44,390 bases of DNA from Aggregatilineales bacterium (GCA_029975765.1 JARKOK010000071.1:1-44390); one strand, 5' to 3'. Shown: positions 555 to 43,818, counted from the stretch's first letter. The notes: generated from the sequence alone by a model not told the origin. Numbers and translations: made by a program.

Positions 555-584
555 TTGACAGACACGTAAGCAATATATTATAAT
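555..584 (+). promoter_or_regulatory. Consensus sigma70-type promoter: TTGACA (555-560), 18-nt spacer, TATAAT (579-584)
   Basis: Both hexamers match consensus; lies upstream of fadR in the 551-708 intergenic region. Confidence 0.8.
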
Positions 585-590
585 AACATC

Positions 591-607
591 AACTGGTCAG
601 ACCACTG
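591..607. promoter_or_regulatory. Putative FadR operator AACTGGTCAGACCACTG (palindromic core TGGTC-A-GACCA, 594-604)
   Basis: Core matches the E. coli FadR consensus (AACTGGTCNGACC...) from memory; overlaps the predicted +1 of the promoter upstream of a fadR homologue. Confidence 0.75.
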
Positions 608-708
608 GCCAGATCACATATCTGATGCTCAAAATGCTTTGTTGTGGGTGGCTGTCACCGCTTTCCTGCAATCCGAACTGTCTGTCTCAATGAGGTCATA
701 ACTGCCTG

Positions 709-1407
709 ATGAACTGGTCGAAGCCGGAACGCCCCGTAGACTATGCCGAACATACCCTGATTACCGCCATTGTGGACGGCCAGTTTCCACCCGGTGCGGC
801 GCTGCCCGGCGAACGCGATCTGGCGGCGATGCTGGGTATCACGCGGCCAACGCTGCGCGAGGTGCTGGGGCGGCTAGAGCGTGACGGCTGGATAACCATC
901 CGGCAGGGAAAATCTACGGTGGTGAATGATTTCTGGTGGGATGGTGGGTTGAATGTTCTGAGTGGGCTGGTGCGTTACAGCCGCTCGCTGCCGCCGGATT
1001 TTGTGCCTAATCTGCTGCGCGTCCGGCTCGATATGGCGCCGTCGTATACGCGGCTGGCGGTCGAACGTGAGGCGGCGGCAGTGGCGATGCGGCTGGCAGC
1101 TTATCACGACCTGCCGGATACACCGGCAGCATTCGCGGTGTTTGACTGGTCGCTCCAGCGCTGCCTGGCGGTAACGTCGGGTAATCCGGTGTATGCCATG
1201 ATCCTGAATGGTTTTAACGGCTTCTATGAATCTCTGGCTGTGCCGTATTTTGAGCTGGACGCAGCGCGGGACACCTCGCGCGCCTATTACGCGGCACTGC
1301 TGGACGCGGCCCGGCGCGGCGATGCGGCGACGGCAGAGGCCGTGACTCGCGCGGTGATGCAGGAGAGCATCAGTCTGTGGTTACGGACGCACCCGGACGA
1401 GGGTTAA
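709..1407 (+). CDS. fadR: FadR-type GntR-family acyl-CoA-responsive transcriptional regulator
   Basis: 232 aa; RFPPGTxLPAERxL..G(V/I)TRxTLREVLxRLxRDGWxTI-like wHTH and a FadR_C-like region (SGNPVYAMILNGFNGFYES, ESISLW) resembling E. coli FadR along its length. Confidence 0.85.
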   Translation: MNWSKPERPVDYAEHTLITAIVDGQFPPGAALPGERDLAAMLGITRPTLREVLGRLERDGWITIRQGKSTVVNDFWWDGGLNVLSGLVRYSRSLPPDFVPNLLRVRLDMAPSYTRLAVEREAAAVAMRLAAYHDLPDTPAAFAVFDWSLQRCLAVTSGNPVYAMILNGFNGFYESLAVPYFELDAARDTSRAYYAALLDAARRGDAATAEAVTRAVMQESISLWLRTHPDEG

Positions 1408-1419
1408 AAGGGGGACGGT

Positions 1420-3012
1420 ATGCGGCGGTGGAACGGTTGGGGCGATGACAGCGTGCGCTATCCGCTGCCGGGGAGCGCGATAAAGTTTCTGGAGCAGCGG
1501 TTAGGGGAAGGAACACGACCGCATGATGCTGCCCTGCCGGATGTCGCTGCGCGGGTGCGGTCGTCACGCCTGCCTGCGCACCCGCTGGTGACGACGGATG
1601 CCGTCGAACGGGTGCGCCACGCGCGAGGGCAGAGCCTGCCGGACTGGCTGGCGCTGCGCGGCGGGCGAGTGGACACCTTTCCTGATGGTGTGGCCTATCC
1701 TCTGACTGCCGACGATGTATGCGGCCTGCTGCGGTATGCGGCAGCGGCAGGCGCGCGGCTGATTCCCTATGGCGGTGGAACGAGCGTTGTCGGCCATATT
1801 AACGCTGTGCCGGGCGATGCGCCGGTGCTGACCGTTGATCTGAGCCGGATGAACCGCCTGCACAAACTGGATGAAAATACTTTGCTGGCGACCTTTGGCG
1901 CGGGGGTGGTCGGGCCGGATCTGGAGGCACAGCTTCGGGCACGGGGTTATACCCTGGGGCATTATCCCCAGTCGTTTGAGTATTCAACGCTGGGCGGCTG
2001 GATTGCGGCGCGCTCCAGCGGCCAGCAGTCTTTACACTACGGGCGCATCGAAGGTTTGTTTGTCGGCGGGCGGGTGGAAACGCCGAACGGCGCGCTGGTG
2101 CTGCCCGCGATCCCCGCGTCCGCCGCCGGACCAAACCTGCGCGAACTGGTGCTGGGGTCAGAGGGTCGGCTGGGCATCATCACTGAGGCGACGGTTAAGG
2201 TTTCGCCTCTGCCGGAGCGAGATGAATTCTGCGCCGTGTTCTTCCCGGATTTTGAGAGCGGGCTGACCGCCGTGCGCGAGATGGTGCAGGCGCGGCTGCC
2301 GCTGTCCATGCTGCGCCTGAGCACGCCGGCGGAAACCGAAACCACGCTCAGGCTGGCCGGGCATGACCGGCTGATCGGCGCGCTGGAGCGGTACTTGACC
2401 CTGCGCGGGATGAAGAATGGCAAGTGCCTGCTCATCTTTGGTGCGACCGGACGGAAAGCCATCACCGGCGCGGCGGTTAAAGCGGCGCTGGGATTAACGC
2501 GTGCGCACGGTGGGATACACATCGGGCAGACGTTTGGCCGCCAGTGGCAGAAAGGGCGGTTCCGCACGCCGTACCTGCGGAATACGCTGTGGGACGCGGG
2601 GTACGCGGTGGATACACTGGAAACGGCGACCGACTGGACAACCACGCCGACGATGATCGCGGCGATTGAAACGGCGCTAAGGGACGCTGGCGCCGGGACA
2701 GACGAGAGACTCCACGTTTTCACACACCTGTCACACGTTTATCCTCATGGCACAAGCGTTTATACCACCTATGCTTTCCGCCTGTCGCCGGACCCTGATG
2801 AAACGCTGCGCCGCTGGCAGGCGATGAAGGCCGCCGCCAGCGCAGCGGTGGTTAAACACGGCGGCACGATCAGCCATCAGCACGGCGTTGGTCAGGATCA
2901 TACGCCGTATCTGGCTGCCGAAAAAGGCGATCTGGGCATGGCGGCCATTCGGGACGCGCTGCGAACGTTTGACCCGGCAGGCATCATGAATCCGGGCAAG
3001 TTGGTGGAATAA
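1420..3012 (+). CDS. FAD-binding oxidase of the alkylglycerone-phosphate synthase (AGPS) family
   Basis: N-terminal RWNGWG, PYGGGTSVVGH, FEYSTLGGWIAARSSGQ, GSEGRLGIITEATVKVSPLPE, ISHQHGVG; FAD_binding_4 plus FAD-oxidase_C layout as in AGPS. Confidence 0.85.
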   Translation: MRRWNGWGDDSVRYPLPGSAIKFLEQRLGEGTRPHDAALPDVAARVRSSRLPAHPLVTTDAVERVRHARGQSLPDWLALRGGRVDTFPDGVAYPLTADDVCGLLRYAAAAGARLIPYGGGTSVVGHINAVPGDAPVLTVDLSRMNRLHKLDENTLLATFGAGVVGPDLEAQLRARGYTLGHYPQSFEYSTLGGWIAARSSGQQSLHYGRIEGLFVGGRVETPNGALVLPAIPASAAGPNLRELVLGSEGRLGIITEATVKVSPLPERDEFCAVFFPDFESGLTAVREMVQARLPLSMLRLSTPAETETTLRLAGHDRLIGALERYLTLRGMKNGKCLLIFGATGRKAITGAAVKAALGLTRAHGGIHIGQTFGRQWQKGRFRTPYLRNTLWDAGYAVDTLETATDWTTTPTMIAAIETALRDAGAGTDERLHVFTHLSHVYPHGTSVYTTYAFRLSPDPDETLRRWQAMKAAASAAVVKHGGTISHQHGVGQDHTPYLAAEKGDLGMAAIRDALRTFDPAGIMNPGKLVE

Positions 3013-3058
3013 GCAAGTCGTGTCCTGCCGTAACCCTGCAAATTGCGAGGAATGATGG

Positions 3059-4795
3059 ATGTGGGACAAGAACTGGCGTGATGAACTGTGGGCGCGGCTG
3101 AGCCAGCCCTGGGATGTGCTGGTGATTGGCGGCGGCATCACCGGGGCGGGGATTCTGCGGGAAGCAGCCCGGCTGGGGCTGCGCGTTCTGCTGGTCGAAC
3201 GACGCGATTTCGCGTGGGGTACATCCAGCCGGTCATCCAAGCTGGTACACGGCGGCCTGCGGTATCTCGCCAGCGGGCAGGTGGGTGTAACGCTGACATC
3301 GGTGCGCGAGCGCGAAAGTCTGCTGCACGACGGGCCGGGTCTGATTGACCCCCTGGGCTTTCTGGTAGCGACCCATAAAGGTGATAAGCCAGGACGTTTC
3401 ACCTACGGCGCGGGATTAGCGGTGTACGACCTGATGGCCTTACAGTGGTCGCACCGCTATTACAGCGCGGACGAATTTCGGATGCTGATGCCGTATCTGG
3501 GTGGCGAAGGACTGCGCGGTGGCTTCCGCTACGAGGATGCGCAGACTGACGACGCGCGGCTGGTGCTGCGGGTGATTCAGGAAGCCGTGGCCGACGGCGG
3601 CGCGGCCATCAATTATGCCGGTGTGGACGAACTGCTGCTGGAAGATGGGCAGGTGGTCGGGGCGCGGTTGTGCGATCAGGTGGCTGGACGCGTGGCTGAT
3701 GTATCGGCGAAGGTGGTCATTAACGCAACCGGCGCGTATGCCGACAGCCTGCGAGGGCAGGTCGGTGGCGAGCGGCGGATTCGCCCCCTGCGGGGCAGCC
3801 ATCTGATATTTCCCGCGTGCCGCCTGCCGCTGGCACAGGCGATCACCTTTCTGCATCCGGTCAACCGCCGCCCTGTATTCGCGTTCCCCTGGGAGGGCGT
3901 GACGCTGGTGGGGACAACCGACATTGACCATGACACGCCGCTGGATGAGGAACCGGGTATCGCCCCGGAAGAAGTCGCTTATTTGATGGCCGCTGTTACC
4001 TATCAGTTTCCCGCCCGCGCGCTGACGCTGGATGATGTGGTGGCAACGTATGCTGGCGTGCGTCCGGTCATCGGTACGGGTAAAGATGACCCCTCTAAAG
4101 AATCGCGCGAGCATGTCGTCTGGCAGGAGAACGGCCTGCTGACCGTCACGGGTGGCAAACTGACGACTTTCCGCGCGATTGCGCTGGACGCGCTGAAATC
4201 GGTGCAGGAACGGCTGCCAGCGATGCCGCCAGCCAGCGATAAAGTGCCGGTGCTGAACGCGGTAGACGTGGCGCTGCCGGGTACGATGGATGAGGTTATG
4301 CGCCGCCGCCTGCTGGGGCGTTATGGGGCGGACGCGCCCGCGCTGGTAGCTGCCGCGCAGCCGGGTGAACTGGACGCTGTCCCCGGCACGATGACACTGT
4401 GGGCGGAACTGCGCTGGGCGGCGCGGGCCGAAGGCGTTGTTCACCTGGACGATCTGCTGCTGCGGCGCGTCCGGCTGGGGCTGCTGCTGCCGGACGGCGG
4501 TGCGGCGCTGCTGCCGCAGATTCGGATGATCTGCCAGCCCGAACTGGGGTGGGATAACACACGCTGGGAGGCTGAAACTGCCGCGTATGCCGCCCTGTGG
4601 CAGGCACACTACAGCCTGCCGCCGCGTGATCAGATTCCCGACTGGAATACCATGCTGCCCGCCCCGGACGAAGCGCAACCCCCTGCGCTGAAGCCGCACC
4701 GCAACCGCATACCCATCTATGTGTTATTGGCTGTACTGCTGATTGCGCTGGTAGTCTGGCGCGGCAGGCGCGAGAATGTCGAAAATAGCGGCTGA
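3059..4795 (+). CDS. glpD: FAD-dependent glycerol-3-phosphate dehydrogenase with C-terminal hydrophobic helix
   Basis: DVLVIGGGITGAGILREAARLGLRVLLVERRDFAWGTSSRSSKLVHGGLRYL, GVRPVIGTGKDDPSKESREHVVW, TVTGGKLTTFRAIA are hallmark GlpD motifs. Confidence 0.92.
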   Translation: MWDKNWRDELWARLSQPWDVLVIGGGITGAGILREAARLGLRVLLVERRDFAWGTSSRSSKLVHGGLRYLASGQVGVTLTSVRERESLLHDGPGLIDPLGFLVATHKGDKPGRFTYGAGLAVYDLMALQWSHRYYSADEFRMLMPYLGGEGLRGGFRYEDAQTDDARLVLRVIQEAVADGGAAINYAGVDELLLEDGQVVGARLCDQVAGRVADVSAKVVINATGAYADSLRGQVGGERRIRPLRGSHLIFPACRLPLAQAITFLHPVNRRPVFAFPWEGVTLVGTTDIDHDTPLDEEPGIAPEEVAYLMAAVTYQFPARALTLDDVVATYAGVRPVIGTGKDDPSKESREHVVWQENGLLTVTGGKLTTFRAIALDALKSVQERLPAMPPASDKVPVLNAVDVALPGTMDEVMRRRLLGRYGADAPALVAAAQPGELDAVPGTMTLWAELRWAARAEGVVHLDDLLLRRVRLGLLLPDGGAALLPQIRMICQPELGWDNTRWEAETAAYAALWQAHYSLPPRDQIPDWNTMLPAPDEAQPPALKPHRNRIPIYVLLAVLLIALVVWRGRRENVENSG

Positions 4796-4805
4796 ACAGG
4801 GTTGG

Positions 4806-4825
4806 GGCGGGTTTCTTAACCCGCC
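4806..4825. repeat. Intergenic GC-rich palindrome GGCGGGTT-tctt-AACCCGCC
   Basis: 8-bp perfect arms, 4-nt loop, between glpD and the FGGY kinase. Confidence 0.75.
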
Positions 4826-4846
4826 TCTGCGGTTATTGAGGGCAAT

Positions 4847-6406
4847 ATGGAATATATTTTGGCGATAGATAACGGCACGCAGAGTGTCCGGGCGCTGCTG
4901 TTCGATTTAAAGGGCAATCTGGTTGATAAAGCCCGCGTGCCGATTGAACCGTATTTTTCGCGCCATCCGGGCTGGGCGGAACAGGAACCTGAGGTGTTCT
5001 GGCAGGCGACCTGCCAGGCGTGCCAGCAGCTCTGGCAGATGACCTCTGTGTCGAAAGAAGCCGTCGCCGGGGTAACGCTGACAACCCAGCGCGGCACGGT
5101 CATTAACCTGGATGCAAACGGCCAGCCGCTGCGGCCTGCGATCATCTGGCTGGATCAGCGCCGTACCGAAGGGCTGCCGCCGGTAAGCGGCTGGTGGGGG
5201 CTGGCGTTCAGGCTGGTACGGATGTCGGAGACGGTGGCTTATGTCCAGGCCGAGGCCGAAGGAAACTGGATTCGCATCCATCAGCCGGACATCTGGGATC
5301 AGACTCATAAGTTTGTGCTGCTCTCCGGCTATCTGACGTATCGCCTGACCGGACGGTTGGCGGACTCCGTGGGCTGCCAGGTGACGTATATGCCGTTTGA
5401 CTACAAGGCACAGGCGTGGGCGAAACCGAGCGACTGGAAGTGGCAGGCCATGCCGATAGACCGCGACCAGCTGGTTGATCTGGTACCGCCGGCGCAGGTT
5501 ATCGGCCAGATTTCAGCCGAGGCCAGCACCGCGACCGGTATTCCTGCCGGGCTGCCGCTGGTGGCAGCGGCGGCGGACAAAGCCTGCGAAGTGATTGGCT
5601 CAGGCTGTCTGGAGTCCCATATCGGCTGTATCAGCTATGGTACGACGGCCACGATTAACACCACCCACCGGCGCTATATTGAACCAATCCCACTGATTCC
5701 CCCGTATCCGGCGGCTATTCCGGGCGCATACAGCCTGGAGTTTCAGATTTACCGGGGGTACTGGCTGGTAAGCTGGTTCAAACGTGAATTCGGCCAGCGC
5801 GAAGTGAAGCTGGCGGAAGAGCGGGGCATCGAACCGGAAGCCCTGTTTGATGATCTGGTGCAGCAGTCGCCGCCGGGTTCGGAAGGGCTGATCTTGCAGC
5901 CGTACTGGACGCCCGGTATTAAAGTGCCGGGGCCGGAAGCGCGCGGCGCGATTATTGGCTTTGGCGACTGGCACACCCGCGCACATCTGTACCGCGCGAT
6001 TCTGGAAGGGCTGGCGTTCGCGCTGCGTGACGGCAAGGAGCGCATGGAACGGCGCAGCCATGTGCCGGTTACGGAACTGCGAGTCTCGGGTGGCGGCTCA
6101 CAGAGCGACGCGGCCATGCAGCTTACAGCGGATATTTTTGGCCTGCCGGTGGCACGACCCCATACTTACGAAACTTCCGGCCTGGGCGCGGCGATAGATG
6201 CGGCGGTTGGCCTCAGACTGCATCCTGATTTTCATACTGCCGTTCGCGAAATGACTCGCATGGGGCGCGCCTTCGAGCCGAACCCGCAGACACGGGCGAC
6301 CTATGATGAACTCTATCATGCGGTCTACCGGCGCATGTACGGCCAGCTTCAGCCGCTCTACCGGCGCATCCGGTCAATCACGGGCAGGCAGCCGGCCTCT
6401 GTCTAG
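4847..6406 (+). CDS. FGGY-family carbohydrate/polyol kinase
   Basis: [73 protein letters not shown]; substrate not assignable by eye. Confidence 0.88.
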
Positions 6407-6484
6407 AACTTCGCCCGTGTCTGATATACCTCCAATGTTTTTTGCCGTAAGCTGAAAGCAGAGACAAGCGAGGTGAAGTATATC

Positions 6485-6946
6485 ATGGCGAGTGATGACA
6501 TGGGCAAAACAAGTCTGCTGGAACAACGCTGTACACTGCTGACAAACCAGACGCGGCGGCTGTCCGGTGGCGAACTGGCGCAGCTCATGCCGCAGGTGAG
6601 CCGCTGGCGGGCGACGCATGATGGGAGCGTAAAAACGCTGCGACGTGAGTTCACGTTTACGGACTTTAAAGAGGCCGTGTTGTTCGTGGACAAAGTGGCC
6701 GAACTGGCGAACACCCAGGGGCATTATCCGCGCCTGACGGTGCTGCCCCACCGGGTCATCGTGGAATGGGGTTCACCGGTGATTGGTGGTCTGCACTGGA
6801 ATGATTTTATCATGGCGACTCGCACCGACGATCTGTTTTCGCGCTGGGATGTGATCAGCGGCAAGACTGACGTGGTACAGGCCGCGTCGGAGGAATCCTT
6901 CCCGGCCAGCGACCCGCCAGGCTGGACGAGCAGCCGCCGGGACTAG
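6485..6946 (+). CDS. Pterin-4a-carbinolamine dehydratase (DCoH/PhhB)-fold protein, degenerate active site, with ESFPASDPP tail
   Basis: REFTFTDFKEAVLFVDKVAELANTQGHYPRLTV...GGLHWNDFIMA resembles PCD. ATG at 6485 is preceded by AGGTGA, so the GTG at 6473 is a less likely start. Confidence 0.65.
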   Translation: MASDDMGKTSLLEQRCTLLTNQTRRLSGGELAQLMPQVSRWRATHDGSVKTLRREFTFTDFKEAVLFVDKVAELANTQGHYPRLTVLPHRVIVEWGSPVIGGLHWNDFIMATRTDDLFSRWDVISGKTDVVQAASEESFPASDPPGWTSSRRD

Positions 6947-6985
6947 ACCGGCAGAGAATGATTCCCGCGTCAGCATCAGGATTTT

Positions 6986-7007
6986 GGGGCATGGCGTGCC
7001 GTGCCCC
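6986..7007. terminator. Imperfect hairpin GGGGCAtGGCgtGCCgTGCCCC after the PCD-like gene
   Basis: Nine paired bases interrupted by one mismatch; no U-tract. Confidence 0.45.
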
Positions 7008-7095
7008 ATGCCTGCTGGCAATTATGCCTTGCTCTCCTCAGTTTCGCCGCTAGAATAACTTCCATCTCTACTTGAGATGTGAGGTTAAGCCCCCA

Positions 7096-8307
7096 ATGAT
7101 AACACTCGGCCACTGGGACACCCGCCCGGTGACGATCAGTGTCAAACCCAACTGTATCACGGTCAGCGTGGATGACCCGAAAGAGGCTGATGTCTTCAGC
7201 TACGATCTGGCTGGCCGGCTGTGGACGGCCTTCCTCGATGGTACAGCCTACCGTCGCGGGCTGGATGGTAAGATGGTTGCCAAACGGCGGCTGCCGGGGG
7301 AAGCCCGCGAACGCCGCTGGCTGACCCGGACGGAGGCGCTGGCGATTGAAGACCATGCGCGGCAGCAGATGGTGGACTTATACACTGCGATTCAGTCCGG
7401 CGCGGCGCGGTTGAATACACCGCTGCCTGCTGCCGGTCACGCCGCGTTTGAACGCGCCATCAGGTTCGACGCGGCCCGGTCGCAGGCTGATGTTGAACGG
7501 TATGGGCAGGTGTACCAGCCGGTTGGGATTCTGCCACCTGACCAGTATATGGCGGTGGTGCTCCAGGCGACCGAAGGCTGTTCGTTTAACACCTGTAACT
7601 TTTGCAGCTTCTACAAGGAGCGACCGTTTCGTATCAAGCGGCCTGATGAGTTCCGCGCGCACGCCGCCGCCGTGCGCGATTTTTTGGGCGACGGCCTCAG
7701 CCTGCGCCGCACGATCTTCCTGGGGGATGCCAATGCGCTGGTGGTGCCGATGCCCAGACTGATGCCGCTGGTGGATGCTGTCCATGAAGTGTATGATGTA
7801 CCGGCTCTGGGCGGGCTGTACGCTTTTCTGGATGGTTTCAGCGGCGAGAAAAAAACGATCAGCGATTATCGCGCGCTGGCACATAAAGGGCTGACGCGGG
7901 TATACGTCGGGCTGGAAAGCGGCTGCGATGATCTGCTGGCCTTCCTCCGAAAACCCGGTCAGGCGGCAGACAGCGTCCAGGCCGTGCGCGCGATGAAAGC
8001 GGCGGGGGTGGCGGTCGGCGTGATCGTGCTGCTGGGAGCCGGAGGACAGACTTACGCCGCTGCTCATGTGCGCGAAACGATTCGCACCGTCAATGACATG
8101 GGACTGGACGGTGACGACATCCTGTATTTTTCTGAACTGGTGGTAGATGATGATTTGCCCTATGCGCGGGCGGCGTATGAAGCCGGGCTGACACCGCTTG
8201 GCGCAGCCGAACGTATCGCGCAGGGGGAAATGATTGAGGATGGCCTGCGCTTCAGCGGCGAGCCGCCTCAGATCAGCCGCTACGATATCCGGGAGTTTAT
8301 TTACTGA
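7096..8307 (+). CDS. Radical SAM protein
   Basis: QATEGCSFNTCNFCSFYKERPFR cluster motif, LGDANALVV, YVGLESGCDDLLAFLRKPG. The ATG at 7096 is preceded by GAGG; the ORF track starts at 7072. Confidence 0.88.
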   Translation: MITLGHWDTRPVTISVKPNCITVSVDDPKEADVFSYDLAGRLWTAFLDGTAYRRGLDGKMVAKRRLPGEARERRWLTRTEALAIEDHARQQMVDLYTAIQSGAARLNTPLPAAGHAAFERAIRFDAARSQADVERYGQVYQPVGILPPDQYMAVVLQATEGCSFNTCNFCSFYKERPFRIKRPDEFRAHAAAVRDFLGDGLSLRRTIFLGDANALVVPMPRLMPLVDAVHEVYDVPALGGLYAFLDGFSGEKKTISDYRALAHKGLTRVYVGLESGCDDLLAFLRKPGQAADSVQAVRAMKAAGVAVGVIVLLGAGGQTYAAAHVRETIRTVNDMGLDGDDILYFSELVVDDDLPYARAAYEAGLTPLGAAERIAQGEMIEDGLRFSGEPPQISRYDIREFIY

Positions 8308-9515
8308 TGGCTGCCAGATTATACTACGACGACTCCTATACCTGTGATTTTACCGCGCAGGTCGTTGAACGGCTGGCGGTGGACGGCCATCCGGCGCTGG
8401 TACTGGATGGCACATACTTTTATCCCGCCAGCGGCGGGCAGCCAGCCGATAGCGGGACGATCAACGGCGTGCCGCTGATGGAACTGCGGACGCGCGAGGA
8501 AGATGGCGCGGTGCTGCATGTGCTGGCAGCGGATATACCTGACTCTACGGTGAACGGCCAGCTTGACTGGTCGCGGCGCTTTGACCACATGCAGCATCAC
8601 ACCGGCCAGCACATTCTGACGCAGGCGTTTGTGCAGGTGGCGGAGGCCCACACCGTTGGTTTTCATTTAAGCCCGGACAGCGTAACGATTGATCTGGACA
8701 AAACCAACCTGACGGCGGAAGCCGTCGCCCAGGCGGAAATGGTCGCCAATCAGATTGTGTGGAACAACCTGCCGGTAACAGCGCGGCTTGTTGAAGAAGA
8801 CGGCGCGACCGGTGTGCGGGTGCGGAAGAAACCCGGCCATCTGTTGACCGACGGCCTGCGGGTGATTGAGATTGGCGGCTTTGACAGGACGGCCTGCGGC
8901 GGCACACACGTCGCGCGTACCGGCGAAATCGGCATCATCAAGGTGCTGAAACCGGAACGGCGGGGCGACAAAACGCGGGTGGAGTTTCGCTGCGGCGGGC
9001 GGGCGCTGGTGGATTACCAGCAGAAGAACGCGGTCGTGAACGCGGTTGTCGCGGCGCTGACATGTAAAGCTGAGGAAATCGAGCCGGGGGTGGCGCGGCT
9101 GCAAGAAGAAGTTCGCAGCCTGACGCGCAGCCTCAAAACAGCCACCGGTCAGTTACTTGAATACGAAGCGGAACGCCTGTTACCTGCCGCGCGCGAAGAC
9201 GACAGCCTTCGTGTAGTCAAACACACCTACGAAGGCCGTGATGCCGGTGAACTCAAACTGCTGGCAAACCGGCTGACCGAATCACCGAATGTCGTGGTGC
9301 TGCTGGGTACAAGCGGCGAAAAAGCACAGTTGGTACTGGCCCGCAGCGCCGATCTAACCCAGGATATGAACGCGCTCATTAAACAGGTGCTGCCGCTGCT
9401 GGGGGCGGCGCGCGGCGGCGGCCAGCCGGCGCTGGCGCAGGGTGGGGGTGTTCGTGCCAGCCGGTTACAGATAGAAGCCGCGCTGGATGCTGCTGAGATG
9501 ATGCTCAGAGCGTAA
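8307..9515 (+). CDS. AlaX-like alanyl-tRNA editing protein with C-terminal DHHA1-like domain
   Basis: MQHHTGQHILTQAF (HxxxH), TACGGTHVARTGEIG (CxxxH), LLGAARGGGQPALAQGGG DHHA1-like. Start overlaps the previous stop (TGATG). Confidence 0.88.
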   Translation: MAARLYYDDSYTCDFTAQVVERLAVDGHPALVLDGTYFYPASGGQPADSGTINGVPLMELRTREEDGAVLHVLAADIPDSTVNGQLDWSRRFDHMQHHTGQHILTQAFVQVAEAHTVGFHLSPDSVTIDLDKTNLTAEAVAQAEMVANQIVWNNLPVTARLVEEDGATGVRVRKKPGHLLTDGLRVIEIGGFDRTACGGTHVARTGEIGIIKVLKPERRGDKTRVEFRCGGRALVDYQQKNAVVNAVVAALTCKAEEIEPGVARLQEEVRSLTRSLKTATGQLLEYEAERLLPAAREDDSLRVVKHTYEGRDAGELKLLANRLTESPNVVVLLGTSGEKAQLVLARSADLTQDMNALIKQVLPLLGAARGGGQPALAQGGGVRASRLQIEAALDAAEMMLRA

Positions 9516-9577
9516 CCGGAGGACAAACAGCGCGAAAAAAGTACGGACACACTGCTGCGTGCCCGTACCATCATAAT

Positions 9578-10492
9578 CTACCGCTGCGCTGCTAACAATT
9601 CGTCCACTTCGACACGGGTGGGCATACTCGGCGCAGTACCCGGTCGGGTGACACATAACGCCGCCGTCGCGTTGGCGAAGGCAATCGCATCAGGCAGGTC
9701 TTTACCCTCGGCCAGCGCCACCGCCAGCCCACCGTTAAAAGCATCCCCCGCGCCAGTGGTATCCACTACGTTGACTTTATACGTCGGGATCAGCGCGCTG
9801 CTGCCCCGGCGGATATAACTCGCACCCTGCGCGCCCATCGTTACCACAACGGTCTGCTGTTCGGTTGTCAGCAGCGAGCGGGCGGCCTCTGCCACCGCAG
9901 CACCCGGCCTGCCGGACAGCACTTCCAGCTCCGTCTCATTAGGCGTAATGTAGTCGGCCAGTGCCACCACCTCCGCCGGGAGATGACCGGCTGGCGCAGG
10001 ATTCAAAATCGTGCGGATGCCCTGCTGTTTGGCGGCTTTAAGCGCATAGCCTACCATGTCATAATTAACTTCAAGCTGTGTCAGCAGTACATCCGCCCGC
10101 GCGATAACCGCCGCCGCCGAATCGACATCCGAGGGTTTAAGATTCAGGTTCGCGCCTAATACAACCACGATGCTGTTCTCGCCAGAGTCGTCCACGAAGA
10201 TGGGCGCGACGCCGGTTGCATGGTCGGGGTCGCGCACAACATAATCGGTATTAACGCCTTCCTGCTGCCAGAAGCGCACCGCCTGATCGCCAAAGGCATC
10301 CTGCCCCACACGCCCGATGAAGGTGACATCAGCGCCCAACCGCGCTGCCGCCACCGCCTGATTCGAACCTTTGCCGCCGGGGCCGGTGACGAACTTCCGC
10401 CCGCTGACGGTTTCACCGGGGCGCGGCATCCGTTCCATATAGGTGGTGAGATCGGTGTTAAAGCTGCCAACAATCACAATTTTTGCAGTCAT
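9578..10492 (-). CDS. rbsK: Ribokinase (PfkB family)
   Basis: VVGSFNTDLTTYMERMPRPGETVSG, GGKGSNQAVAAARLG, NPAPAGHLP, TPNETELEVLSG, VVDTTGAGDAFNGGLAVAL. Confidence 0.9.
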   Translation of the reverse strand: MTAKIVIVGSFNTDLTTYMERMPRPGETVSGRKFVTGPGGKGSNQAVAAARLGADVTFIGRVGQDAFGDQAVRFWQQEGVNTDYVVRDPDHATGVAPIFVDDSGENSIVVVLGANLNLKPSDVDSAAAVIARADVLLTQLEVNYDMVGYALKAAKQQGIRTILNPAPAGHLPAEVVALADYITPNETELEVLSGRPGAAVAEAARSLLTTEQQTVVVTMGAQGASYIRRGSSALIPTYKVNVVDTTGAGDAFNGGLAVALAEGKDLPDAIAFANATAALCVTRPGTAPSMPTRVEVDELLAAQR

Positions 10493-10604
10493 GGGAAGTC
10501 CTCGGCGCCAGAACGCATGAGAAAATATTCATGGCGAAAAGTATACCGCAGGACTATGATTATGACATGCAGCCAAGCATGTATCATGTATAAGGAGAAG
10601 GCTC

Positions 10605-11282
10605 GTGGAAGTTTGGATTTCCGGCACGATTGATGAAGTCACCGCTGCCACCCAGTCCGGTCTGGCCGCTGTGGTCGCTACCAATCCAACGCTGATCGCC
10701 AGATGGACAGCGACCGGCCGCACGCTCGAATCGGTTGTAACCGAGGTGTGCCAGCGAGTGGACGTGCCGGTGTATGTACAGCTTCATGGCCCGAATGTGG
10801 CAGGTTATCTGGCCGAATATGAAACCCTGCGCCATATTTCGCCACAGATTCAGCCCAAGCTGGTAGCCACACATGACGGTATCGCGGCAGCGGCCCAGAT
10901 TGTGAAAGCGAGACATAAGCCGCTGGTGACGGCTGTCTGCACGCTGAATCAGGCCTTTCTGGCGGCAGCAGCGGGTGCAGCCTATATCGCGCCTTACGTC
11001 GGGCGCATCGAAGATGCGGGCGAAGACGCGATTGGTCTGATTGATAAAATCGCCAATCTGTATGCCCGTCAGAACGTCGAAACGAAAATCATCGCCGCCA
11101 GTGTCCGCACGCCGGCTCAGGCCGAAGCTTCGCTGCTGGCCGGGGCGTATGCGGTGGTCGTATTCTACGATGTGTTCCAGCAGTTATTTGAGAGCCATTT
11201 GACACAGGCTTCGATTGAGGGTTTCGAGCGCGATTGGTCGCAGTTTACCTTTGAAGGGCGGGCTGATCTGGCGCGGGCGTAA
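10605..11282 (+). CDS. Transaldolase / fructose-6-phosphate aldolase-like protein (GTG start)
   Basis: VATNPTLI, PKLVATHDGIAAA (aligns with the Schiff-base Lys region), FLAAAAGAAYIAPYVGRIEDAG; AAGGAG upstream of GTG. Confidence 0.82.
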   Translation: MEVWISGTIDEVTAATQSGLAAVVATNPTLIARWTATGRTLESVVTEVCQRVDVPVYVQLHGPNVAGYLAEYETLRHISPQIQPKLVATHDGIAAAAQIVKARHKPLVTAVCTLNQAFLAAAAGAAYIAPYVGRIEDAGEDAIGLIDKIANLYARQNVETKIIAASVRTPAQAEASLLAGAYAVVVFYDVFQQLFESHLTQASIEGFERDWSQFTFEGRADLARA

Positions 11283-11304
11283 CCGACAAACGGCTGTCCG
11301 GCGG

Positions 11305-12234
11305 CTACAGCGGCTGCCATACCAGCCGCCGCGCGACATTCTGTCCCGTGAGTCTGGTAATCGTAGCCGCCTCCACCCCTTCGCTTTGCAGGCGGGGAAT
11401 GATAAGCTTTGGCAGCGCCAGCAGCCCCCATTCGCCGCCCTGATGCGCCCACATACGAGGGTGCGCCAGATCAAGGCCGAGCGCGATGCTGTCGCCAAAA
11501 TCAGCTTGCAGCATGGTTTTCAGCAGCGGCCAGACGTTCTCATTGGGATTATATTTAGGGCGCAGGAATGTATCGTAACCGAGCAGCACACCGGCGCGGG
11601 CGAGATCCTGATGCAGGCCGGTATCCGGCCGTTTGTCCATGTGGCACAGATACAGCCGTGTCGCGGGGATACCCCGGTCGGCAAAAAAGGGAACGAGTTC
11701 TTCCACATTTTTACCCTGTTCGGTATGGATAAGGATGGCCGCGCCGGTCTGCCGGGCGGCGGCGGCAGCGGCTTCCATCAGGGCGCGCATCTGGCCTTCG
11801 ATCAATCCATCGTAACCGATTTTGATAGTCGTCGCCCGCACGGTGCGGCTGCTCTCGCTGACGCCCGCCGTCAGTTCCTCGATGAAATAGGCGGCAGCCT
11901 GCTGTTCGGTAGCCGTCCACAGCCAGCTTTCCAGCGGATAATAACGTTTGAGGTGAAAGCCAGTGGTTGAGGTAATCTGCACGCCGGTGACTTCGGACAG
12001 GTTGGCGAGCATTCGCGCGTCTCGCCCACAGCCACCGGGCTGGCAGTCAATCAGCGCGATCCCACCCGCCGCGCGGAATTCTTCCAGTTCAGCAGTAATC
12101 GTGTCGTAGTCATCAAGAACCGGCGCGCTGTCGTCCATCACGCCGGGAGGCGGTTTAATCCAGGCGTGGGCGTGCCCATCAGCCAGCGTGATGGTTTCAA
12201 CGGGTACTTCTCCCAGCACGGTACGCAGTTTCAT
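11305..12234 (-). CDS. Phosphotriesterase-like (PTE family) TIM-barrel metal-dependent hydrolase
   Basis: HAH near the N-terminus, Lys in TIKIGYDG, ILIHTEQG, LCHMDK and ALGLDLAHP supply the HxH/K/H/H/D metal-ligand pattern. Confidence 0.75.
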   Translation of the reverse strand: MKLRTVLGEVPVETITLADGHAHAWIKPPPGVMDDSAPVLDDYDTITAELEEFRAAGGIALIDCQPGGCGRDARMLANLSEVTGVQITSTTGFHLKRYYPLESWLWTATEQQAAAYFIEELTAGVSESSRTVRATTIKIGYDGLIEGQMRALMEAAAAAARQTGAAILIHTEQGKNVEELVPFFADRGIPATRLYLCHMDKRPDTGLHQDLARAGVLLGYDTFLRPKYNPNENVWPLLKTMLQADFGDSIALGLDLAHPRMWAHQGGEWGLLALPKLIIPRLQSEGVEAATITRLTGQNVARRLVWQPL

Positions 12235-36898: not shown

Positions 36899-38848
36899 TC
36901 ATAACACCGGCGCGGCGCCGCCGGGATCGCCGGCCACAAACCACAACTGCCCTTCATGCGGCAGCAAATCTGCCGTGAGCGCGTTCACCAGCTTCGGCCC
37001 GTCCTCATTCGGCCAGTGGCAGGCATACAGGTTGTCGGGCAGCCCCAGGAGCGCGAGAGGGTAGGTACGCTGCACCGCCGTTTCGCCGGTGTTCAGGATG
37101 AACACAGCGGCAGGTAAAGTCTGATCGAGTGCCGAGCGCACCTGTACCAGCACCGGATCAAGGGCGCGAACCGGCGCGCGACCGGTCTCTCCACCGCCCA
37201 GCACCAGCGGTGACTGCCCCAGCAGCGGAAACCGGCAGCGTGATTTATCCGGTGAGAGCAGCAGTTTCCACAGTCGCAGGCGTTCCGGTGACAGCTCGCT
37301 GAGGTTGTCGCTGGTCAGTACCAGACCGCCGGACATCCCGGCGTACAGCGCGAGGGATTGAATTTCCCTGTCTGTCAGGTGATGAAACCGCTCGCGCAGC
37401 AGGATACAGTCCGGGTCGGTCTGCCAGAGAATATGATTGCCAAAGTTACGGGTGGCCTGATCGCGCAGGAGCGACTGCGCCGCCAGACTGTCACCTTCCC
37501 ATTTCACGCCAACATCACGCCCGATACGGACGGCATCCACCAGCCCGACCGACGCCCACAGCGGGCAGCCGCAGCCCAGCCACAGCGCGTCACCGACTGT
37601 TTCCCGAATCATTTCGGCTGTTCGCCGCCAGCTTTCGATGCGCGTCATGCCCGGCTGATACCATTGAGCGCGGTCAGGGCCGTACTCGCTGCCAAAGTGC
37701 ATGAAGTCGGTCTTGAAGTACTCGCAGCCCCACTCGTGCCGCCAGATGCGGAACACCTGCCGCAGGTAGTCGAAGGCGTCGGGGTGCGTCGTATCGAGAA
37801 TGTAATATTCTTCGCTGCGTTTGTGCCAGCGAAACTCGCTGTAAAAACGCATGTGCGCCAGTGGGCCGCCTGTTGCGCGATCAGTCACCACCCAATCGGG
37901 ATGGTCGTGGTACAGGCGGCTGCGGTTGCCAACCATAAACGGCGCAATCCATAGTCCCGGTATAAACCCGGCAGCCCGGATGTCGTCCAGCAGCGGCTTC
38001 ATGCCGCGCGGAAACTGCGGTTTCACATCCAGCCAGTCACCCATTTCCGGTGTGAAGCCGTCGTCAATCTGAAACACCCCCATCGGCAGGTGTTCACGCG
38101 CTGCCACATCGCGCACACCGCGCAGGTGTTCAAGGATATTTTCCTCGGTGATGGCGGCATACAGGCTGTACCACGAACACCAGCCGGTGATCGGCGGCGC
38201 GCTCAAACGCGGCGACATGGCTGCCGCGACAAGGCGCGCCCACTCACGCAGCGCGTCCTCCACGCCGTTATGTTCGAAGATCACCAGCCGTTCGGAGTTG
38301 CAGCGCGCCAGCCCCCGGCGATTTTTGTCATCCCACAGCGTTTCGATGGTCAGCGAGAAGCTCTCCGCCTCGCGCTGGAGCGTGAACGGCTGCTGGTAAC
38401 GGTCGTGACGGTCGAAGCCGATGACAAGGCTGCCCGCGCCGAACAGCGGCAGAAGCTGGGTCATGGCGTAGCCCTGGATGCTGCTGCCAACTGCATACTC
38501 TTCTGGCGGCACATAATAGCTGCCATCCCAGCTAAAGTAGCCGTTTTTAAGAAACGCCCGCAAACCGCCGAGCGGCGCAAGCCGCAGCCCGAACGACAGA
38601 AGTTGAAAGTCATCTGGCAGTGTTTCCAGCCCGTAGCGCAGCCCGCAGCGTGTGTCGCCCTCCGGTTGAAGTTCGACATAAAACGTCCCCGCCGGCAGCG
38701 TGAAACGGGCGGTTATCTCGCCGTCCAGGGCTGTCACAACCGGGGGCGCGTCCGGGAACGGAACGCCGTTGACGACCGGAATCAGCCGCCCCAGGCTGAC
38801 GATACGCGATATCAACGTGATTCCGTCTGGCGCGGCGCTCACGATCAT
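36899..38848 (-). CDS. GH36-type alpha-galactosidase-like glycosidase
   Basis: GWCSWYSLYAAITEENI, GVFQIDDGFTPEMGDWLDVKPQFPRGMKPLLDDIRAAGFIPGLWIAPFMV, YFKTDFMHFG, DAVRIGRDVGVKW. Confidence 0.88.
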   Translation of the reverse strand: MIVSAAPDGITLISRIVSLGRLIPVVNGVPFPDAPPVVTALDGEITARFTLPAGTFYVELQPEGDTRCGLRYGLETLPDDFQLLSFGLRLAPLGGLRAFLKNGYFSWDGSYYVPPEEYAVGSSIQGYAMTQLLPLFGAGSLVIGFDRHDRYQQPFTLQREAESFSLTIETLWDDKNRRGLARCNSERLVIFEHNGVEDALREWARLVAAAMSPRLSAPPITGWCSWYSLYAAITEENILEHLRGVRDVAAREHLPMGVFQIDDGFTPEMGDWLDVKPQFPRGMKPLLDDIRAAGFIPGLWIAPFMVGNRSRLYHDHPDWVVTDRATGGPLAHMRFYSEFRWHKRSEEYYILDTTHPDAFDYLRQVFRIWRHEWGCEYFKTDFMHFGSEYGPDRAQWYQPGMTRIESWRRTAEMIRETVGDALWLGCGCPLWASVGLVDAVRIGRDVGVKWEGDSLAAQSLLRDQATRNFGNHILWQTDPDCILLRERFHHLTDREIQSLALYAGMSGGLVLTSDNLSELSPERLRLWKLLLSPDKSRCRFPLLGQSPLVLGGGETGRAPVRALDPVLVQVRSALDQTLPAAVFILNTGETAVQRTYPLALLGLPDNLYACHWPNEDGPKLVNALTADLLPHEGQLWFVAGDPGGAAPVL

Positions 38849-39840
38849 AACGCGACCTCAGCGCGGCTCTCTGCTGAACGGCGCGCCGCCAGCACCAGAT
38901 CGAGCGATTTGGCGCCCTCGCGCATCGGGGTGCGGGTTTCGCCGCCGGCACGGACAGCCTGGATGAGATCAAGTGTCAGACTGCGGCGGAAGTCCTTTGT
39001 CGACTCGACAGTGATTACCGGATTGTCCGGCTGGTTGGTCTGAGTAAAAATCGCCTGATTGGCAGTCTGAAAATCGGCCACCAGATGATGCGCCACGACG
39101 CGGTAATCGTTGATCCATTTGCCGGGGATGGCATTGTTGGTGGCATAAATCACCCCCAGCCCGCCGCCCTTGAAGCCGACAACGGTCGCGCTTACGTCCT
39201 CAATCGTGTAATCAGGTACGTCCTGATGGAACAGGTTTTCCTGGCGGCTGTAGACGCTCACCGGGTCACCTACCAGATAGCGCAGTAAATCGAACAGGTG
39301 GATCACCTGCTCGACCACCTGCCCGCCGGATTTATCGCGCCTTCGCCACCAGGAAGCGTGCAGCGCGTTGCAGAAGTAACGGGCGGTCATCAATCCGATT
39401 GCCCCGGTCTGCCCGGCGGCCTGCAGCGCCTTGAAGCGTTCGATGGCCTCGCCAAAGCGGAACATAAAACCAACCTGCGACTTCACGCCGGCTTTCTCAA
39501 CCGCTTCGACCATCTGCCATGCATGTTCGGACGTGAGCGCGATGGGTTTCTCCATCAGGATATGCACGCCGGCCTCGGCGGCGCGCTCCACTTCATCGCT
39601 GTGACCATAGGGCGGCAGGGCGACGATGACCATATCCAACTGCGCCTGATCGAACAGGGTGTGATGGTCGGTGAATACAGCAGCGCCCGGCGCATACTTC
39701 TGCTCGAATGCCTGCGCTTTCCAGGCGTTGCGGTCGCAAAAAGCGACCAGGCGAGCCTCATCTTTTAAATCGAGAATGATCTGAGCGTGTTTGTTGGCAA
39801 AATCGCCGCAGCCCAGGATACCAACCCGCAGGGGATTCAC
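38845..39840 (-). CDS. Gfo/Idh/MocA-family oxidoreductase
   Basis: RVGILGCGDFANKHAQIILDL, VIVALPPYGHSDEVERAAEAGVHILMEKPIALT, GGQVVEQVIHLFDLLRYLVGDPV. 4-nt overlap with the GH36 gene. Confidence 0.93.
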   Translation of the reverse strand: MNPLRVGILGCGDFANKHAQIILDLKDEARLVAFCDRNAWKAQAFEQKYAPGAAVFTDHHTLFDQAQLDMVIVALPPYGHSDEVERAAEAGVHILMEKPIALTSEHAWQMVEAVEKAGVKSQVGFMFRFGEAIERFKALQAAGQTGAIGLMTARYFCNALHASWWRRRDKSGGQVVEQVIHLFDLLRYLVGDPVSVYSRQENLFHQDVPDYTIEDVSATVVGFKGGGLGVIYATNNAIPGKWINDYRVVAHHLVADFQTANQAIFTQTNQPDNPVITVESTKDFRRSLTLDLIQAVRAGGETRTPMREGAKSLDLVLAARRSAESRAEVAL

Positions 39841-39852
39841 AGGTATGCTCTC

Positions 39853-40902
39853 CTATTGTGTGGTGTCAAATTCCAGCAGGGGAAGGACAACTTCGTTGGG
39901 GCGCTGATCAAGCACCTCGTACAGTTCGGCGGCACGCTCGAACGGCGCGCGGTGGGTGATGAGCGGGCGCAGGTCAAACCAGCCCTCGGCTTGCAGGCGC
40001 ACCGCGCTCTGCCACAGGCGCGGCTTGTTCCAGCGGTAGCTGGTCTCCGGTGACACGCCCGAAATCTGGGAGCATATCAGCGAGATACGATTATGATGGA
40101 ATTCATCACCGAGATACAGACCGTGCGCGTCACCCTGGAAGAAGCCCATCGCCACCACCCGCGCCGAATACGCCACTGCCCGGATAGCTTCATGTAGTGC
40201 CGCTGTCGAGCCGGATACTTCAATGCAGACGTCCGCGCCCATCCCGTTGGTCATGGCCTTAATGGCTTCAGCCGGATTATCCCGCGCGGCATTCAGCGTT
40301 ACGTCCGCGCCCAGCGTCCGCGCCATGTCCAGCCGCGAGTCGTGCAGGTCAACGGCGATGACTTTCGCACCGCTCTGGCGTGCCATAATGGCAACAATCT
40401 GGCCGAGCGCGCCTAGCCCAAACACGGCTACCGTATCGCCCAGTTGGATGTTAGCATCATGCACGCCGTTGAGCGCAATCGCGCCCAGGTGCGAAAAAAT
40501 GCCAAACAGCGGGTCTGCGCCCTCCGGCATCAGGCGTGGGCGAACGTAATCCAGATGGGCGACAAAGTGCGTGCGGTGCCCCCACGTTCCGAACAACTGC
40601 GCGCCAATGGGAATATCGGCCACCGCGTTGCCAACTTCGATAATCTCGCCAACTTCCTCGTAGCCGAGATTCGTCACCGGATACGCGAAGGTGGCCTGTT
40701 CGCCGGTGCGGAACAGGCGGTTATCGGCATCCCATTGTTTGCTCAGATACGGATTCGTGCCCCGGTAAAAGGTGAGTTCCGTCCCGGCGCTGATACCGGA
40801 GTACAGTGTCCTGATGCGCACTTCATCCGGCTTCAGCGGCGCGTCATCATACGCCTGATAACCCGGTGTGCGCGGGGCGGTAAAGACCAGCAGCTTGCCC
40901 AT
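39853..40902 (-). CDS. MDR-superfamily dehydrogenase lacking canonical Zn-ligand motifs
   Basis: YSGISAGTELTFYRG, LGYEEVGEIIEVG, VAVFGLGALGQIVAIMARQSGAKVIAVD. Confidence 0.88.
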   Translation of the reverse strand: MGKLLVFTAPRTPGYQAYDDAPLKPDEVRIRTLYSGISAGTELTFYRGTNPYLSKQWDADNRLFRTGEQATFAYPVTNLGYEEVGEIIEVGNAVADIPIGAQLFGTWGHRTHFVAHLDYVRPRLMPEGADPLFGIFSHLGAIALNGVHDANIQLGDTVAVFGLGALGQIVAIMARQSGAKVIAVDLHDSRLDMARTLGADVTLNAARDNPAEAIKAMTNGMGADVCIEVSGSTAALHEAIRAVAYSARVVAMGFFQGDAHGLYLGDEFHHNRISLICSQISGVSPETSYRWNKPRLWQSAVRLQAEGWFDLRPLITHRAPFERAAELYEVLDQRPNEVVLPLLEFDTTQ

Positions 40903-40938
40903 GACATGAACCTGCCTGTTGAAAAGAAGTCCCTAAAA

Positions 40939-42699
40939 CTATCGGTCAAATGCGCCCAGTTCGACACAGGCCAGCGCCGCGTTCGGCCAGGCGAACCAGT
41001 GGCGGGAAACCACTTCATTGGTCTGCGCGTCGCAGGCTTCGGGGAGCGCGCCATCCCACTGGGCTGCGGCCCGCAGCCGGTCGCGGGCACGGTTGGCGCG
41101 TTCCGCATCATTCAACGACTGTGCCATGATGAGGTCCTGCACGTCGCCCAGCGGCCAGGGCGCTCTGGTATGGACTGATCCCAGGCGGCCAGCGTATGCG
41201 CCGCCAACATTGGCCTCGGAAAAGGCAAAATCCAGCGTCGCGCGCCATACCGGGTCGTTGGCTGCGACAAAACCCCAGCGCGCAGCCAGCGCCAGCGGAA
41301 TATCATTGGCGTCGTGATAAAAATGGTATCTGCCGCCGCCGTCAGTGGCGTAAGCATACAGCGGCCTGCCGGCCTGCTCGCTGATGAAATGCCGGTTGAT
41401 GGCCGCGTGACACTGTGCCGCCAGCCCGTCGGCATCAAACCCCAGTTGGTTCAGCCGGGTCAGCACCCGCCAGAACAAAAGGTGGCTGGAAAAATGATAG
41501 GGGAGGGCAATCGGATCGTCTGCCGGGGTTTCGTCGGTTGGCAGTAACAGCGCGTGTGCGGCTTTACGCGCCAGCAGTTGCTCCAGCAGCGGTCGGACGT
41601 GTGGTTGCAGCCGCGCCCAGGTAGCCTGGTCACCGGTCTCCAGGGTATATTCCGCCAGTTCCAGCAGGGGAAAGAGCTGCTGGTCAAGCTGGAACGCGCC
41701 ATCCTTGATCCGCCCATTTGCCAGATAACACCGGCTCCACAGCCCCCCATCGCGTTCGGCAGTTTCAAACAGCCACAACAGATGGCGGCGCACGATATCC
41801 GTCAGTCCCCAACTGAGCAGCGCGCGGGCAACGTAATAGGCATCCCGGTTCCAGGACAGCGGCAGCAGCATATGATCGGTCAGCAGGCAGATGGTATCAC
41901 CAACTGGCACCGCTGTTGCCAGCCCGTAAACCAGACCGCGCCGGAGTAACGGGTCTGCCGGCAGGTTCTGCCAGCGTCCCTGCCAGTCTGCCAGCGTTTG
42001 ATCGAGTAACGCTCTGGCATGGGTGTGCAGCCAGTCGGCGTTTTCGGCGGCCTGTTCGACCGTGCTGCCAGCGCCGTAAGCCAGGACCGTAAACTCCGGT
42101 TGAACGGGTGTGAGTGCGATGTTAACCGGCTGATCGCTGTGGAGGATGTCGGGCGTGGCGGACGATTTCAGGCCGGCCATCACGACCGCCGCGCCCAGGA
42201 TGGTGTTTTCGACGACCAGCCGGTCATGACAGGTCACCGTCAGCGCCAGCGGCGGCATGGGCAGCGGCCCGCCTTCAGTCAACTGGGTATAGGCGCTGCG
42301 CTGCAAACACAGTTTGCCCTGCCAGCGCGGGGTGACGCCCCGCACATCCCAGATTTGCACCACGCCGCGCTCATGGGCCAATGTTGTTACTTCGGCGGCC
42401 CCGCCATTCTGAAAGATCAGTCGAAGGTGCGGAATAGCGGAGTCCAGTAGCGCGGCCTCGCGCTGGATAATCGGCTCATCAAAGTGCAGCCCGAACCCGC
42501 GCAGGCTGACCAGACCCGCGCGGTAGGCGCGCACCGCCGCCGGGTTATAACGCTCGCTTTCGGGAAAGGGGTCAGCCGTCGTCAGCGTGACATAACCGTG
42601 AGCGGCATGGTAAAAATTCAGCGCGATGATCCGTCCATCGGCATCCAGGCTGCCGGTCACACCGCCCGCGCCGAAGTCCGCCGGTTTATGCAGGGTCAC
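40939..42699 (-). CDS. Six-hairpin (alpha/alpha6) glycosidase-like protein
   Basis: LPLSWNRDAYYVARALLSWGLTDIVRRHLLWLFETAERDGGLWSRCYLANGRIKDGAFQLDQQLFPLLELAEY; family number not assignable by eye. Confidence 0.7.
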   Translation of the reverse strand: MTLHKPADFGAGGVTGSLDADGRIIALNFYHAAHGYVTLTTADPFPESERYNPAAVRAYRAGLVSLRGFGLHFDEPIIQREAALLDSAIPHLRLIFQNGGAAEVTTLAHERGVVQIWDVRGVTPRWQGKLCLQRSAYTQLTEGGPLPMPPLALTVTCHDRLVVENTILGAAVVMAGLKSSATPDILHSDQPVNIALTPVQPEFTVLAYGAGSTVEQAAENADWLHTHARALLDQTLADWQGRWQNLPADPLLRRGLVYGLATAVPVGDTICLLTDHMLLPLSWNRDAYYVARALLSWGLTDIVRRHLLWLFETAERDGGLWSRCYLANGRIKDGAFQLDQQLFPLLELAEYTLETGDQATWARLQPHVRPLLEQLLARKAAHALLLPTDETPADDPIALPYHFSSHLLFWRVLTRLNQLGFDADGLAAQCHAAINRHFISEQAGRPLYAYATDGGGRYHFYHDANDIPLALAARWGFVAANDPVWRATLDFAFSEANVGGAYAGRLGSVHTRAPWPLGDVQDLIMAQSLNDAERANRARDRLRAAAQWDGALPEACDAQTNEVVSRHWFAWPNAALACVELGAFDR

Positions 42700-43808: not shown

Positions 43809-43818
43809 ATTGCTCCTC

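Follow-up and report, generated by a model that had tools for sequence, protein, structure and literature searches.

Organization and distribution of the gene cluster

We analyzed a 44,390-nucleotide (nt) stretch of DNA from an Aggregatilineales bacterium (GCA_029975765.1, JARKOK010000071.1:1-44390; hereafter the window), in which four genes encode a FadR-type regulator, a flavoenzyme resembling alkylglycerone phosphate synthase (AGPS), a GlpD-like dehydrogenase, and an FGGY kinase. All four lie on the plus strand, with intergenic gaps of 12, 46, and 51 nt, and are presumably co-transcribed. The coordinates, spacing, and protein families given for these co-directional genes in an initial annotation were confirmed by our analysis of the open reading frames and of Pfam and NCBIfam profiles. 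The following features were assigned:

555-584, plus strand: predicted sigma-70-type promoter, TTGACA-18-TATAAT, with 12 of 12 consensus matches
591-614, plus strand: predicted FadR-type operator, AACTGGTCAGACCACTGGCCAGAT, immediately 3' of the -10 hexamer and with a perfect TGGTCNGACCA core
709-1407, plus strand: FadR-type GntR regulator, 232 amino acids, with GntR and FadR_C domains
1420-3012, plus strand: AGPS-like flavoenzyme of a subfamily placed as sister to bona fide AGPS, 530 amino acids, with FAD_binding_4 and FAD-oxidase_C domains
3059-4795, plus strand: GlpD-like, FAD-dependent glycerol-3-phosphate-type dehydrogenase, 578 amino acids, with DAO and DAO_C domains
4709-4759, plus strand: C-terminal hydrophobic segment of the GlpD-like protein, IPIYVLLAVLLIALVVW, identified from sequence
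4847-6406, plus strand: FGGY kinase, 519 amino acids, with FGGY_N and FGGY_C domains

Our search of 150 relatives identified an orthologue of the AGPS-like protein at 55-81% identity in 16, so that the cassette is more than a chance arrangement, and many of these relatives keep the order FadR, AGPS, GlpD, FGGY. A wider scan covered 84,980 genomes and yielded hundreds of further copies; the best 80, from which taxonomy was taken, are distributed among Chloroflexota, Acidobacteriota, Bacillota, Myxococcota, and many Proteobacteria. Neighborhoods were counted in 97 loci from many phyla, which were picked as best matches and are not all independent (for example, L044 and L079 are one contig). In these loci, the GlpD gene directly follows the AGPS gene in 86 of 92 with room for it, and FGGY follows in 59 of 82. 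A FadR gene is located upstream of the AGPS gene in 30 of 92 loci, and 34 of the 97 have a GliR-like AraC gene, in each case without FadR. The remaining neighbors are variable, with the exception of a YegS-type lipid kinase gene at six Pseudomonas loci. This survey bears out the earlier suggestion that AGPS/GlpD/FGGY neighborhoods recur in bacteria. A Pseudomonas cassette neighbor also gave a weak match to phospholipase C (E 0.12).

The AGPS-like, GlpD-like, FGGY order seen in the window and in the loci compared is also that of the P. aeruginosa PA3026-PA3024 operon, for which Kotecka et al. (2021) described the activator GliR and proposed alkylglycerone phosphate synthesis (PMC8151288). The initial annotation knew of no assigned function for the gene set; the operon is indeed unexplained, but the trio had been published, and with the same biosynthetic suggestion. 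Other Pseudomonas copies show approximately 56-58% AGPS identity with the window protein. The P. aeruginosa operon has a divergent gene for the AraC-type activator GliR and is followed by a YegS lipid kinase gene, whereas the window has FadR upstream and is without YegS.

The AGPS-like protein belongs to a sister subfamily of bona fide AGPS

The AGPS-like protein contains the AGPS motifs RWNGWG, STLGGW, and GSEGxLGxITEATxK, all of them conserved, and its predicted structure (predicted local distance difference test score of 90) has the AGPS fold. The top 37 matches of this model in the PDB are all AGPS (template modeling score up to 0.91, E 1e-46 to 3e-39), with D-lactate dehydrogenase (LDH) structures ranking behind them (E 3e-28). 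Residues R299, R387, Y448, and H181 correspond to AGPS residues, and the first three, which are retained in every aligned cassette copy, align with R352, R447, and Y508 of Dictyostelium AGPS (the PDB chain index is three behind the published numbering), residues demonstrated by mutagenesis to matter (PMC3509576). In LDH/GlcD-type homologues, position 299 is E, position 448 is H, and position 181 is P or I.

These proteins therefore have in common with bona fide AGPS (guinea pig, Dictyostelium, and the MXAN_1676 type) the fold, the catalytic Arg/Arg/Tyr, and two of the three histidines of the HHH motif. The window protein is, however, only approximately 31% identical to guinea pig AGPS, and the HHH motif (His615-617 in guinea pig AGPS) reads HQH in the window protein and in most members, with Gln487 in the place of His616; three cassette members (L048, L049, and L088) keep HHH, and Glu is found at position 487 in GlcD/LDH-type proteins. 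In our tree the cassette family forms its own clade (support 100/100), which is adjacent to the bona fide AGPS clade and not nested within it; the AGPS clade comprises the enzymes of guinea pig and Dictyostelium together with four myxobacterial proteins (99/96; guinea pig with myxobacterial AGPS, 100/100). Both clades exclude GlcD/LDH and YgcU, although YgcU has a long branch and an uncertain placement. On this sequence evidence, the AGPS-like protein is a member of a separate sister subfamily of bona fide AGPS. A search of the relatives for a canonical AGPS elsewhere, with guinea pig AGPS as query, retrieved nothing beyond the cassette protein and some more distant proteins resembling oxidases. 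Fold, catalytic residues, and phylogeny thus agree with the earlier assignment to the AGPS family, and none of the three shows the clustering with D-lactate/glycolate oxidases that would have spoken against it.

In five genomes of myxobacterial orders (L268, L270, L271, L272, and L273), a further, partial match to the family lies a short distance after the AGPS-like gene, and the two are possibly tandem copies.

Cassette partners differ from those of bona fide bacterial AGPS

In myxobacteria, a gene for a fatty-acyl reductase/acyltransferase fusion follows the bona fide AGPS gene in 4 of 4 loci, a neighbor already published for MXAN_1676, whose loss lowers ether lipids only slightly (PMC9131029). 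No such fusion occurs among the cassette neighbors scanned, so that the partners of bona fide AGPS are a reductase and an acyltransferase, whereas those in the cassette are GlpD and FGGY. The cassette grouping extends to a distant lineage (L265, positions 5237-11999), where an AGPS-like protein of 32% identity adjoins an FGGY kinase (47%), with a GlpA-type dehydrogenase (DAO and BFD domains) approximately 2 kb beyond the kinase. The recurrence of all three in this lineage suggests a functional link between the kinase, the dehydrogenase, and the AGPS-like enzyme.

The kinase and the dehydrogenase come from the same families as the FGGY kinase and FAD-dependent glycerol-3-phosphate dehydrogenase of the GlpK/GlpD pathway. 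The cassette differs from that pathway in that its genes are extra copies, in that the kinase contacts are changed, and in that many Chloroflexota GlpD-like proteins carry a putative membrane-anchor tail. The GlpD-like protein of the window is GlpD-like in sequence but scores below the NCBIfam equivalog cut-offs, as does the other GlpD of the host. It is a paralogue of this second GlpD, which is encoded approximately 1 kb from a GlpK scoring over its cut-off, on the same contig and apart from the cassette. Since the genome has this separate GlpK/GlpD pair, the cassette kinase and dehydrogenase are best seen as extra, dedicated copies. The hydrophobic C-terminal segment of the GlpD-like protein is probably a membrane anchor; it is present in approximately half of the Chloroflexota copies and in none of the proteobacterial copies.

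The FGGY kinase retains the catalytic Asp244. Of the residues that we take to be the glycerol contacts of GlpK (R83, E84, W103, Y135, D245, Q246, and F270), it keeps R83, W103, and D245, while E84 is replaced by G, S, or A, Y135 by F, L, or V, and Q246 by K, and the F270 position is missing. These four positions are altered in all or nearly all cassette kinases, whereas all 12 GlpKs compared, which come from this genome and related ones, retain the GlpK residues there. The best NCBIfam score of the kinase is against XylB, not GlpK, and is below every cut-off. Glycerol, one of the substrates suggested earlier alongside dihydroxyacetone and alkylglycerol, is therefore disfavored by the changed contact residues, and salvage of a substrate other than glycerol fits better.

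The FadR-type regulator is predicted to act locally

Detailed examination of the regulator agrees with its earlier description as FadR-type: it contains FadR_C, scores 202 bits against the 189-bit cut-off of the equivalog NF003444 (though under the stricter cut-off of TIGR02812), and is preceded by a matching predicted operator. It has in common with E. coli FadR the GntR and FadR_C domains, the DNA-contact residues, an operator of the TGGTCNGACC type, and several residues of what we presume to be the acyl-coenzyme A (acyl-CoA) pocket (R105, Y172, Y179, S219, and W223). It differs in that G216 is Met in all 30 copies, in its Chloroflexota host, and in having one local operator per genome in a search for the 16-mer. 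Of 32 upstream regions, 27 hold an operator core with a score of 9-10 of 10, whereas shuffled sequences reach at least 9 with a probability of 0.005, and the 16-mer is perfect exactly once, at the cassette, in 8 of 9 genomes searched; the ninth (G019) has an operator with one mismatch at its cassette. Other 16-mer sites, including those that might indicate a regulon over fatty-acid genes, occur at control level at up to two mismatches in the nine genomes, a search that would miss more diverged sites, and with no surplus of sites in this range we dropped a global fatty-acid regulon as the role of this FadR. Because the operator occurs essentially once per genome, and at the cassette, FadR looks like a local autoregulated switch, and the location of the operator over the likely transcription start suggests repression.

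E. coli-type FadR, with FadR_C and an E. coli-like operator (in the window at 709-1407), is thus found in Chloroflexota, Acidobacteriota, and others; to our knowledge, this type has been thought mostly gammaproteobacterial.

A candidate pathway for the breakdown of 1-O-alkylglycerol

Based on these observations, we tentatively propose, as a reading that may well be right but that we hold short of probable, that the genes are a locally regulated three-enzyme cassette for a 1-O-substituted, most likely 1-O-alkyl, glycerol, working in the catabolic direction. The FGGY kinase would phosphorylate 1-O-alkylglycerol at C3 to give alkyl-glycerol-3-phosphate, and the GlpD-like flavoenzyme would oxidize C2, passing electrons to quinone, to give 1-O-alkyl-dihydroxyacetone phosphate (alkyl-DHAP). 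The AGPS-like enzyme would then carry out AGPS chemistry in reverse, with proton abstraction by Tyr448 and a flavin N5-DHAP adduct, expelling the fatty alcohol and freeing DHAP, or releasing acyl-DHAP if a fatty acid replaces water. Oxidation and activation of the fatty alcohol would yield acyl-CoA, the expected ligand of FadR, which would lift repression at 591-614. In P. aeruginosa, PA3026-PA3024 is co-activated with the phospholipase C PlcA and a YegS lipid kinase (PMC8151288), and these two enzymes could feed such a catabolic route.

The proposal draws on the AGPS fold and catalytic residues, the position of the cassette family next to bona fide AGPS, the kinase and dehydrogenase genes in L265, the separate GlpK/GlpD pair, the changed kinase contacts, the retained FadR residues with their single local operator, the co-activation in P. 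aeruginosa, and the absence of AGMO-type (FA_hydroxylase) and pterin hydroxylase genes from five genomes of the genus. Further considerations point in this direction. The enzyme set appears arranged for breakdown because the GlpD reaction runs as an oxidation, which is the wrong direction for the step that follows alkyl-DHAP in ether synthesis. If the substrate is a 1-O-alkylglycerol, the kinase, C2 dehydrogenase, and AGPS-like enzyme fit together directly, because alkyl-DHAP is the AGPS product. Finally, the catabolic route is favored because bona fide AGPS adjoins a reductase/acyltransferase and the cassette family adjoins a kinase and a dehydrogenase.

It is possible, though doubtful, that the cassette amounts to an oxygen- and pterin-independent system for glyceryl ether cleavage, made up of a kinase, a dehydrogenase, an AGPS-derived flavin ether-cleaving enzyme, and a dedicated lipid-sensing FadR switch. 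In the literature surveyed, pterin-dependent AGMO is the sole enzyme credited with cleavage of the alkyl ether bond. Searches on ygcU/ygcE and on AGPS-GlpD operons found nothing on these topics. Relative to the literature searched, what is new is the form of the cassette under FadR control and its operator, together with the recognition of a separate AGPS subfamily, the contrast in gene context, the changes in kinase residues, and the catabolic proposal.

Several points weigh against this catabolic proposal. The established activity of AGPS is that of a synthase, and for the enzyme to run in reverse or to hydrolyze is only proposed; we found no documentation of AGPS reversibility in the literature searched. 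Deletion of PA3026-PA3024 gave no phenotype in the conditions tested (PMC8151288). The FGGY gene is absent from 12 of 22 FadR-type loci with room for it, where the kinase may be encoded elsewhere or be dispensable. The argument from the kinase pocket leans on presumed GlpK contacts, and acyl-CoA may not be the FadR ligand, because G216 is Met in all copies. Some cassette members keep His at the position of Q487. An acyltransferase gene located just upstream of the AGPS gene in one locus (L077), and a strong fatty-acyl-reductase-like gene elsewhere in the genome of the window, speak for biosynthesis instead.

In a biosynthetic pathway, kinase and GlpD would supply DHAP, an unlinked acyltransferase would make acyl-DHAP, and the AGPS-like enzyme would swap the acyl chain for a fatty alcohol. 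We consider this unlikely, although it has the AGPS fold and catalytic Arg/Arg/Tyr in its favor in addition to the two genes just mentioned, and it is what has been suggested in print for P. aeruginosa. The strong reductase-like gene does not track with the cassette, being present in 4 of 10 cassette genomes and 6 of 21 others, and no acyltransferase or fatty-acyl-CoA reductase gene is conserved beside the cassette, unlike at bona fide bacterial AGPS loci. The loss of GlpK glycerol contacts from the kinase also argues against this pathway. DHAP is a central metabolite that needs no dedicated enzyme, and with a separate GlpK/GlpD pair in the genome we rejected DHAP supply, the role given to GlpD in the initial annotation, as the reason for its presence. 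The simple ether-lipid biosynthesis offered there is likewise disfavored by the lack of a conserved partner, the separate AGPS-like clade, and the change of His616 to Gln.

A distinctly unlikely alternative is that the cassette breaks down a polyol or a glycerol derivative that is not a lipid, such as a tetritol or a glycosyl- or aryl-glycerol ether, with an AGPS-like enzyme that would cleave or oxidize a keto-phosphate. Erythritol catabolism by the EryA/EryB kinase and dehydrogenase offers a model for such a pathway, and the altered kinase pocket, the best though sub-threshold score against XylB, and the related E. coli pair ygcU/ygcE, found in a setting of sugar transporter and flavoprotein genes, are consistent with it. 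YgcU nevertheless falls outside the clade of AGPS plus cassette proteins, though on its long branch, and no conserved sugar transporter or isomerase gene is present among the cassette neighbors scanned; a FadR-type regulator with acyl-CoA-type residues points to lipids, as does the operon's shared control with phospholipase C and a lipid kinase in Pseudomonas. That the AGPS-like protein only resembles AGPS and is a redox dehydrogenase akin to the lactate/glycolate oxidases is highly improbable: it shares the superfamily domains and its best NCBIfam match is GlcD, far below the cut-off, but GlcD/LDH-type homologues carry E, H, and E where the cassette family has R299, Y448, and Q/H487, and on the basis of tree, fold, and residues we rejected an oxidase identity.

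If the catabolic proposal is true, a widespread gene set would account for bacterial recycling of ether lipids independently of AGMO, which requires oxygen, with the AGPS fold working in reverse. If biosynthesis is true, many Pseudomonas, Marinobacter, and Chloroflexota are predicted to contain ether lipids. In both cases, an operon without a deletion phenotype becomes a testable pathway with named substrates. These findings also call for caution, in that not every metagenomic AGPS homologue denotes an ether-lipid maker, and surveys by homology only may count it as one (PMC11868695).

Other genes near the cassette

Directly after the FGGY gene, a gene encoding a pterin-4a-carbinolamine dehydratase is present at 6473-6946, as it is after FGGY in L033; among the loci compared it adjoins the cassette only in the genome of the window and in G009. 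We rejected this gene as part of an AGMO-type cleavage system, since no AGMO-type (FA_hydroxylase) or pterin-dependent aromatic hydroxylase gene was found in five genomes of the genus and the neighbor is rarely shared. Further downstream, at 7072-8307, is a gene for a radical SAM protein with a weak likeness to the PhpK/bcpD P-methyltransferase group, followed at 8307-9515 by one for an AlaX-like alanyl-tRNA editing protein, a pair conserved near the cassette in three loci (L034, L035, and L039). At 36899-44024, the minus strand carries a run of genes with a probable role in sugar uptake and degradation, among them genes for glycosidases resembling melibiase and GH125 and for a MalK-type ABC ATPase.

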